Shown here: piece by piece, positions 21,726-24,200 of the stretch
Layout: every line of letters begins with the position of its first letter
Numbering within the stretch: the first letter of the stretch is position 1
Source: Gloeocapsa sp. UFS-A4-WI-NPMV-4B04
GTDB taxonomy: Bacteria > Cyanobacteriota > Cyanobacteriia > Cyanobacteriales > Chroococcidiopsidaceae
NCBI GenBank assembly: GCA_019359535.1
Contig: JAHHHE010000031.1
Span: 1-37,782 of the forward strand
DNA: 37,782 bases
Direction: 5' to 3'
Translations under genes and position numbers: made by a program
Notes under the pieces: generated by a model
Databases searched by the model: none
What the model saw: the letters and a program-made list of their open reading frames with translations, nothing else
What the model was told of the DNA's origin: nothing

Positions 21726-21755
21726 TTGTACTCTACCTCATGACAGATGTATAAT
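21726..21755 (+). promoter_or_regulatory. Promoter of the riboswitch-controlled Mn exporter gene
   Basis: TTGTAC (21726-21731) and a perfect TATAAT (21750-21755) are 18 bp apart. Transcription would begin near 21762, only a few bases before the 5-prime strand of the aptamer P1 helix. Confidence 0.75.
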
Positions 21756-21765
21756 GACTCAGCGA

Positions 21766-21951
21766 TGAAGGGGAGTAGCTGCTGGTTTAATGATTAAGCC
21801 AGTCCGTCTGAATCAACATACTGGCAACAATAGCCTGGTTCAGATGACAAGTATCGGGTCGATTCAGTAATCAGATAAACTGGGCTGAACCGTCAACTTG
21901 GGAGTGAGACCTTCACTGAGTTCACATAAACTGTGAGCTTGGTGAGGTCTT
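21766..21951 (+). promoter_or_regulatory. yybP-ykoY manganese riboswitch
   Basis: The leader carries the conserved yybP-ykoY elements: GGGGAGTAG at 21770-21778 (loop L1) and GTGAGACCTTC at 21904-21914 (loop L3 and P1 strand). TGAAGG (21766-21771) pairs with CCTTCA (21910-21915) to close the aptamer. The family senses Mn2+ and typically turns on Mn efflux genes. Downstream, AGACCT (21907-21912) can instead pair with AGGTCT (21945-21950), extended by CACT / GGTG, forming a hairpin that hides the GAGG Shine-Dalgarno (21944-21947) just before ATG 21952. The two pairings exclude each other, so Mn binding should free the ribosome site. The aptamer call is firm from the motifs; the switching mechanism is inferred. 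Confidence 0.9.
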
Positions 21952-22626
21952 ATGGCACTTATCAAGCTCACTGAGGAAAGTTATTTAATTCTGAGGAGCT
22001 TGCTCACGTTGCTGTCAGCTTTTACTGCCGGTTTATTGCTAATTGCGGTTTCAGAGCTAGGGGATAAAACCTTTTTTATCGCCGTAATTTTGGCTATGCG
22101 CCACTCGCGACGGCTGATATTTGCAAGTGTGTTAGCGGCTCTAGCTACAATGACGGTACTTTCTGTAGCGGTGGGACAAGCAGCATCTTTATTCCCACAA
22201 GTTTATATTCATTACGCCGAAATTGTTTTGTTTATTGGCTTTGGTTTCAAGCTGCTGTATCAAGCAAGCGTAATGCCTGCTGCTTCGTGTGATGCAGAAG
22301 TGGTATTAGAAGCAACAGAAGTAGTCGAGAAAGCTGAATTTAAATTACCGGAAGAACAGACTGCAACGGCAATTTGTTTAGAAGCGTTTAGTTTGACGTT
22401 TTTGGCGGAGTGGGGCGATCGCACTCAATTTGCTACGATTGCGCTAGCAGCAGGTAATAATCCGATAGGTGTGACAACTGGTGCTATTCTTGGTCATGCG
22501 ATTTGTACGGCGATCGCTGTCATTGGTGGACGAATGCTAGCGGGGCGTATTTCTGAGCGTACACTTACAGGTGTAGGAGGCTTTCTGTTTCTCGTCTTTG
22601 GTATTGTTGCCTGGTTACAGGGTTAA
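21952..22626 (+). CDS. mnx: UPF0016/GDT1 family manganese exporter
   Basis: This 224-aa membrane protein of the GDT1/TMEM165 family has the two hallmark motifs E-x-G-D-(K/R)-(T/S): SELGDKT (E35-T40) and AEWGDRTQ (E153-T158). They lie on antiparallel repeat halves with about six membrane helices in total, separated by an acidic loop (about 110-140). Cyanobacterial members (Mnx in Synechocystis) move Mn2+ out of the cytosol, into the thylakoid lumen or periplasm, protecting the cell and supplying photosystem II. The upstream yybP-ykoY riboswitch independently supports Mn as substrate. The start ATG directly follows the switch hairpin with GAGG four nt before it. Confidence 0.92.
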   Translation: MALIKLTEESYLILRSLLTLLSAFTAGLLLIAVSELGDKTFFIAVILAMRHSRRLIFASVLAALATMTVLSVAVGQAASLFPQVYIHYAEIVLFIGFGFKLLYQASVMPAASCDAEVVLEATEVVEKAEFKLPEEQTATAICLEAFSLTFLAEWGDRTQFATIALAAGNNPIGVTTGAILGHAICTAIAVIGGRMLAGRISERTLTGVGGFLFLVFGIVAWLQG

Positions 22627-22799: not shown

Positions 22800-24200
22800 T
22801 TGACTGAAACTAACAATTTATCCTCAACTCTCCAGGATTTCTCACGTAAAGAACTACGAGATTTAGTCCGCAATCAGCTTCAAGCACTGCTGGAACAAGG
22901 AGACTTACAGGGAGCAAAAGCAATCTTGGTTCCGGTGCAGCCTGCGGATATCGCTGAAGCAATTGAAGGCTTACCTGAAGCGATCCAAGCGCTTGCATTC
23001 CGCTTGCTATCAAAAAGTGAGGCAATTGAGGTTTATGAACATCTTGATTCTAGTGTGCAGCAAGCATTAATTGAGGAATTCAAGCGTCAGGATGTCCTCG
23101 ATATCGTAGATCAAATGTCACCCGATGACCGAGTGCGATTATTTGATGAGCTACCAGCAAAAATCGTTAATCGTCTGCTCGAACAACTTAGCCCAGATGA
23201 ACGCCAAGCAACAGCCCAATTATTGGGTTATCAACCCGATACTGCTGGGCGGATCATGACACCAGAGTTAGTTTCTCTCAAAGAAGGCTTTACTGTAACT
23301 CAAGCACTGGAGCGAATTCGCCGTTTAGCTAATGTTACAGAAACGATCTATTACCTTTATGTCACTGATGCTGCAAGGCGCTTAACTGGAACTTTGTCAC
23401 TACGCGAATTAGTCACCGCTCAACCCCAGGAAACGATTGGGGAAATTATGACGACGGAAGCTGTATTTGTTTACACAGATACAGATCAAGAAGAAGTAGC
23501 AAGGGTAATTCAGCGCTATGACTTTTTGGCTGTACCAGTAGTTGATCGGGAACAGCGTCTTGTCGGTATTGTCACAGTTGATGATGTAATTGACATCCTA
23601 GAGCAAGAAACCACAGAAGATATTTATGCAGTAGGTGGTGGTGTGCAATCTGGTGGTGACAATTATTTTCAAACTGATTTATTTACTGTTGCCCGAAAGC
23701 GTGTTGTTTGGCTGTTTGTATTACTTTTAACTAATACAGTTACAGGTACGATTATTAAGAGTCAAGAAGATATTTTAGAAAAAGTCGTTACTTTAGCCGC
23801 GTTTATTCCTTTACTTGTGGGTACTGGTGGCAATGTGGGCGCTCAGTCATCGACAGTTGTGATTAGAGGTATGAATACTGATGAAATCAGAGGAATGCAA
23901 CCAATCCAGGTAATTGTGCGCGAAGGAATCGCCGGAGCTTTACTTGGCTCAATGTTAGGCGTAGTAGCAACTGTGTGGGCTTACTTTCTTCAAAAAAATT
24001 TATCAGTGGCGATCGCTGTTGGTGTTAGTCTACTAGCAATTTCTGTTTTGGCATCTGTTTCAGGTTCAACGCTACCGTTTTTGTTTCGGCTAATGCGTTT
24101 AGATCCAGCCTTAATGTCAGCGCCATTCATCACCACAGCTGTTGATGTCTTGGGTGTCTTAATTTATTTCAACTTGGCGCGGTTAATTTTGGGATTGTAG
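22800..24200 (+). CDS. mgtE: MgtE-type magnesium transporter
   Basis: This 466-aa protein is a Mg2+ channel/transporter. Residues about 20-135 form the superhelical N domain (MSPDDRVRLFDELP), about 140-265 a CBS pair (IMTTEAVFVYTDTDQ, LVGIVTVDDVIDILE) that gates by sensing Mg2+. A plug helix and five membrane helices follow from about 295. The pore signature PLLVGTGGNVGAQSSTVVIRG and the ending DPALMSAPFITTAVDVLGV are intact. The start is TTG 22800 with GAGGAGGG 7-8 nt upstream; no ATG fits. It follows the Mn exporter on the same strand after 173 bp. I looked for an M-box Mg riboswitch in that gap and saw none. Confidence 0.92.
   Translation: MTETNNLSSTLQDFSRKELRDLVRNQLQALLEQGDLQGAKAILVPVQPADIAEAIEGLPEAIQALAFRLLSKSEAIEVYEHLDSSVQQALIEEFKRQDVLDIVDQMSPDDRVRLFDELPAKIVNRLLEQLSPDERQATAQLLGYQPDTAGRIMTPELVSLKEGFTVTQALERIRRLANVTETIYYLYVTDAARRLTGTLSLRELVTAQPQETIGEIMTTEAVFVYTDTDQEEVARVIQRYDFLAVPVVDREQRLVGIVTVDDVIDILEQETTEDIYAVGGGVQSGGDNYFQTDLFTVARKRVVWLFVLLLTNTVTGTIIKSQEDILEKVVTLAAFIPLLVGTGGNVGAQSSTVVIRGMNTDEIRGMQPIQVIVREGIAGALLGSMLGVVATVWAYFLQKNLSVAIAVGVSLLAISVLASVSGSTLPFLFRLMRLDPALMSAPFITTAVDVLGVLIYFNLARLILGL

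Follow-up and report, generated by a model that had tools for sequence, protein, structure and literature searches.

In E. coli, mntP and alx carry translational Mn2+ riboswitches, in which Mn exposes the ribosome-binding site. The yybP-ykoY aptamer class, its Mn specificity and its link to UPF0016 genes are already known (PMC11087558, PMC6754395, PMC7380456), and P1.1 has been recognized as the switch helix of the class (PMC11087558). According to a 2020 review, yybP-ykoY precedes most bacterial UPF0016 genes (PMC7380456). In cyanobacteria, Mn transport is a known activity of MNX (PMC8236900), and a 2024 study of Synechocystis described ManSR as the sole known regulator of Mn homeostasis in these organisms (PMC11649195).

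We analyzed a 37,782-nt stretch of DNA from Gloeocapsa sp. (hereafter, the window), in which an earlier note had placed a promoter, a yybP-ykoY aptamer and a GDT1-type gene within 235 bp. The sensor and the gene are as first read, the ribosome site lies elsewhere, and within its known riboswitch class the leader represents a variant with a platform of its own. We consider it likely that this leader, as a member of the yybP-ykoY class, switches translation of a GDT1 Mn exporter on in response to Mn2+, through an exchange among three helices, named A:B, B:C and C:D after the strands that form them. The leader resembles the RF00080 class in its L1 and L3 motifs, its four-way arrangement of P1-P4, its short P1.1 switch helix and the Mn-homeostasis gene downstream (PMC6754395, PMC11087558), but it differs in that the window and 59 genomes of its taxonomic class stay under the gathering score, and in its own conserved platform. 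Its likeness to the L. lactis yybP-ykoY riboswitch is that P1.1 is set against a downstream hairpin and that Mn is expected to favor P1.1, with the gene on (PMC11087558); here, however, a consistent U-tract is lacking, and the effect would be relayed through two more helices to the Shine-Dalgarno sequence. The proposed opening of the ribosome-binding site by Mn in the window is what it would share with E. coli mntP and alx. We found no description of the cyanobacterial A-D platform in the open literature; cyanobacterial members may have been mentioned before.

The aptamer, its promoter and the downstream gene

The search with the RF00080 covariance model, which had been suggested as a check, gave a divided answer: the alignment covers the whole model at 21758-21864 with E=2e-5, but its 26.1 bits fall below the gathering score of 45 bits. 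This is the one convincing RF00080 match in the source genome. The leader also folds much better than shuffled versions of itself (z = -4.9). All features described here lie on the forward strand, and the letters on which the two competing pairings had been built, namely TGAAGG (21766-21771), CCTTCA (21910-21915), AGACCT (21907-21912) and AGGTCT (21945-21950), were verified.

We compared the parts of the aptamer among 184 distinct leaders. The 5' strand of P1.1, GAAGG at 21767-21771, pairs with 21910-21914 to give five pairs (GAAGG/CCUUC); it is paired in 184 of 184 leaders and near-invariant, and an extra outermost pair, U21766-A21915, is retained in only 89 of them. The L1 motif (GGGGAGUAGC, 21770-21779) fits the RF00080 consensus and is identical in 179 of the 184. 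P1.2 joins 21778-21780 with 21903-21905. In the P2 hairpin (21781-21803), double changes occur at all six of six consensus pairs, in 11-33 sequences each (n=175), and P3 (21805-21846), which carries the L3 motif UCAACAUACU at 21813-21822, has eight variable pairs with 5-48 double changes. L3, like L1, hardly varies, and its A21818 is invariant (184/184); when the AUACU of L3 is matched with A48-U52 in the X. oryzae structure (PMC6754395), A21818 becomes the putative Mn2+-coordinating adenosine. P4 (21848-21900) is a variable arm with a predicted fold, whose length differs among relatives. The arrangement of P1-P4 around a four-way junction closed by P1.1 was predicted with P1.1 forced; within it P2 and P3 covary, and P4 is a prediction only.

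Both motifs of the RF00080 class, L1 and L3, are therefore present in the window leader, including the invariant adenosine. Judged by this computed identity, with RF00080 aligned and both motifs intact, the earlier note was right to place a genuine yybP-ykoY (Mn2+) aptamer ahead of a GDT1/UPF0016 gene, and this aptamer would be expected to bind Mn.

Upstream, a -10 box TATAAT (21750-21755) matches the consensus at six of six positions and starts 20 bases 5' of the first G in the L1 motif. Among relatives, 147 of 184 have a -10 box with a match of at least 5/6, mostly 19-22 nt before GGGG. A promoter directly upstream of the aptamer, as described in the earlier note, is supported; the -35-like TTGTAC (21726-21731; 18 nt from the -10 box) matches at three of six positions, and several relatives have TTGACT at the -35 position. 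Given that TATAAT is placed 20 bases before L1 and that this position is conserved in relatives, the RNA probably begins just 5' of P1.1, with transcription starting near 21762. We also considered a longer P1.1, in which CUCAG (21758-21762) would pair with CUGAG (21916-21920), and rejected it; this extension is absent in the relatives read, and its 5' strand would fall at the probable start of transcription or upstream of it.

The GDT1/UPF0016 (Mnx-like) coding sequence occupies 22009-22626 and encodes 205 aa from a TTG start at 22009, which aligns with the GTG or ATG of relatives. The earlier assignment to a GDT1-type transporter was borne out, since PF01169 matches the protein in two stretches with 155.2 bits against a cut-off of 27, and two EXGD(K/R)T motifs, SELGDKT and AEWGDRT, are present. 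Searches by sequence gave no relative of the window protein with a solved structure, and no NCBIfam model matched it. In its PF01169 match, its length of 205 aa and its two EXGD(K/R)T motifs, the protein resembles cyanobacterial Mnx of the UPF0016/GDT1 family (PMC8236900, PMC11649195, PMC7380456), and by this analogy it may transport and export Mn. Downstream of GDT1, and in the same orientation, the window carries a gene for an MgtE-type transporter of divalent cations (22800-24200, forward strand); it has a TTG start with AGAGGAGGG immediately 5' of it.

The start codon and the platform strands

The earlier note had taken ATG 21952-21954 as the start codon and GAGG 21944-21947 as its Shine-Dalgarno sequence. 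In the 184 distinct leaders, however, a start codon is found about 14 codons 5' of SELGDKT (118 GTG, 62 ATG and 4 TTG), and computation places the homologous start of the window gene at TTG 22009-22011, 57 bases downstream of ATG 21952. AGGAG precedes the conserved start in 148/184 leaders, most commonly at a spacing of 9 nt, and in the window this family site is AGGAG 21994-21998. The combination of GAGG with ATG 21952 is not conserved: of the 184 leaders, just the window and three others have an open, in-frame ATG at that place, 164 lack an ATG at this position altogether, and in 121 an in-frame stop codon separates the hairpin from the conserved start. In a same-genus relative (L019), an ATG occurs at the equivalent place but out of frame. 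Comparison of the leaders thus indicates that ATG 21952 is probably not the start codon. This upstream ATG could be usable in the window genome alone, but regulation that is conserved cannot hinge on it. With the start moved downstream, the span of 235 bp proves too short for the complete unit, because the platform extends to about 22011.

The platform consists of four strands. Strand A (21904-21926) holds the 3' strand of P1.1 (21910-21914) together with the 5' arm of A:B. Strand B (21932-21953) is the 3' arm of A:B, with the core GUGAGCUUGGUGAGG at 21933-21947, which includes the GAGG mentioned above, and it pairs with A or with C. Strand C (CUUAUCAAGCUCACU, 21958-21972) pairs either with B (21933-21946) or with D (21994-22002), and D contains the Shine-Dalgarno AGGAG. 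In one group of leaders (family f27: L195, L199, L209 and relatives), we noticed by eye that strand C can pair with the start codon region (UCAUGC/GCAUGA) in addition to the Shine-Dalgarno region.

We calculated covariation in 85 non-redundant leaders and compared it with 300 shuffles, which ignore sequence relatedness. On this basis, A:B is 90.9% paired with 44 double-change cells (shuffle maximum, 23), B:C is 87.7% paired with 63 (maximum, 41), and C:D is 82.6% paired with 15, a narrow excess over the maximum of 13. When the registers of the platform helices were slid, pairing fell to 35-60%. Three sequence-unlike groups keep A:B, B:C and C:D, and strands bind their own partners better on average than partners from another group. 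All three helices are thus conserved and covary by computation. As for the covariation that the earlier note had wished to see in both competing helices, its hairpin, A:B, covaries above the shuffles, but there is almost no such support for P1.1, because the pairs of this near-invariant helix hardly vary.

Strand exchange and its alternatives

The mechanism that we propose is as follows. When Mn is absent, the 5' strand of P1.1 would be free and A and B would form the long hairpin, so that C would be left to pair with D and hide the true Shine-Dalgarno sequence of TTG 22009. When Mn is present, docking of L1 and L3 would stabilize P1.1, so that A is occupied at its base. This would expose B in its lower part, and B would capture C during transcription of C and displace the remainder of A. 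With C captured by B, and thus unavailable as D emerges, the ribosome site would remain open.

We folded RNA of nascent length, its 3' end 24 nt upstream of the start, with the five pairs of P1.1 either forced or barred. With P1.1 forced, B:C replaces A:B in 179 of 184 leaders; with P1.1 barred, it does so in seven, and A:B forms in nearly all. After shuffling of strand C, the flip to B:C is seen in 17 of 368 cases. The flip of nascent RNA is therefore a direct outcome of the computation. In full-length RNA at equilibrium with P1.1 forced, B:C is restored in 45/184 leaders, the window among them; most leaders go back to A:B plus C:D once D is present. The ON state is less stable by about 10 kcal/mol in the window and by a median of 14.5 overall, in energies that exclude Mn and tertiary terms. 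Since equilibrium folding disfavors the ON state, the proposed switch must be kinetic, with B taking up C ahead of the synthesis of D. The unpaired probability of the Shine-Dalgarno sequence in the window rises from 0.004 with A:B fixed to 0.30 with P1.1 and B:C fixed; the median over the leaders rises from 0.21 to 0.37, a modest opening. Our model is least secure where strand exchange has to lead to a change in translation. We infer the direction of control, the kinetic timing and the size of the change in translation.

These results also bear on other ways of reading the same leader. In the earlier model, the hairpin at 21907-21950 hides the GAGG of ATG 21952, and P1.1 opens it directly. The mutual exclusion that it assumed is real, since the hairpin and P1.1 have bases in common, and the window does have an open, in-frame ATG with GAGG 4 nt upstream of it. 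Nevertheless, we regard this model as very improbable: the ATG is usable in so few leaders, stops intervene in so many, and a conserved AGGAG and start lie downstream, where another helix, C:D, covers the ribosome site, whereas the GAGG stays paired, with C, in the modelled ON state. The same hairpin could instead be an intrinsic terminator, with P1.1 as the antiterminator. The L. lactis riboswitch operates in this manner (PMC11087558), and A:B in the window is stable (about -28 kcal/mol) and competes with P1.1. A terminator would call for a U-tract, however, and none follows A:B consistently in the 184 leaders; at least five T within 7 nt are found in only 44 of them, with at most three in the window. 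As attenuation would also leave the conserved strands C and D without explanation, we think it unlikely.

It is also conceivable that the same three helices act at equilibrium, with Mn shifting the thermodynamic balance, or that P1.1 acts together with a protein or with RNA polymerase pausing. Covariation of the platform helices also speaks for such a scheme, and RNA polymerase and NusA stabilize P1.1 in L. lactis (PMC11087558). The calculated full-length energies, however, strongly favor A:B plus C:D, which makes this variant, like attenuation, a doubtful one. We therefore prefer co-transcriptional exchange, in which B captures C before D is available.

Distribution in cyanobacteria and significance

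The aptamer core reads GGGGAGTA(G/A)C and, after it, TCAACA(T/C)(A/G)CT. In a species-genome collection, the core lies upstream of 80 of the 80 closest GDT1 homologues, with both motifs, and among 390 sampled genomes of the class Cyanobacteriia, 140 contain the exact core (reversed-pattern control, 0). No exact core was found in the sampled genomes of families such as f16, f37 and f34; the f16 genomes are small (1.6-3.7 Mb). As a matter of position, GDT1 lies downstream of the aptamer here and in the 184 distinct leaders. The RF00080 model gave matches in 17 of 19 genomes of the window's family, none past the gathering score, and in 29 of 59 genomes of the class at E up to 0.1, where again 0 of 59 exceeded it. 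Given these sub-threshold scores across family and class, the low RF00080 score is a property of the cyanobacterial branch, and we read it as a cut-off unsuited to the phylum rather than as a missing aptamer.

We also observed several unusual copies. In one genome, an intact riboswitch leader (L163, G083:C84) stands before an ORF that by eye resembles an alcohol dehydrogenase/quinone oxidoreductase and not GDT1, and a second copy (L164) precedes GDT1. Another leader (L140, G278:C87) keeps the aptamer core but has lost the 3' strand of P1.1 and the platform, and GDT1 is not downstream; it is probably a decayed copy, with another core in the same genome. In a third case (L189, G112:C105), the riboswitch is ahead of a divergent UPF0016 protein in which AELPDKT replaces SELGDKT.

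On a broader view, which we hold with evenly balanced confidence, these leaders would represent a cyanobacteria-wide Mn2+ riboswitch missed at the Rfam cut-off, in which a co-transcriptional toehold exchange controls translation of the exporter: by taking the base of the hairpin, P1.1 would decide whether the Shine-Dalgarno-like B captures the anti-Shine-Dalgarno C before D, the real Shine-Dalgarno sequence, has been transcribed, and in one clade C would also mask the start codon. Cyanobacteria need Mn for oxygen evolution, and Mn regulation has been little described beyond ManSR (PMC11649195). The leader offers a concrete route by which internal Mn could control an exporter. In addition, the expected start codon of the GDT1 gene is corrected, and the leaders provide a naturally varied set for studying co-transcriptional strand exchange.
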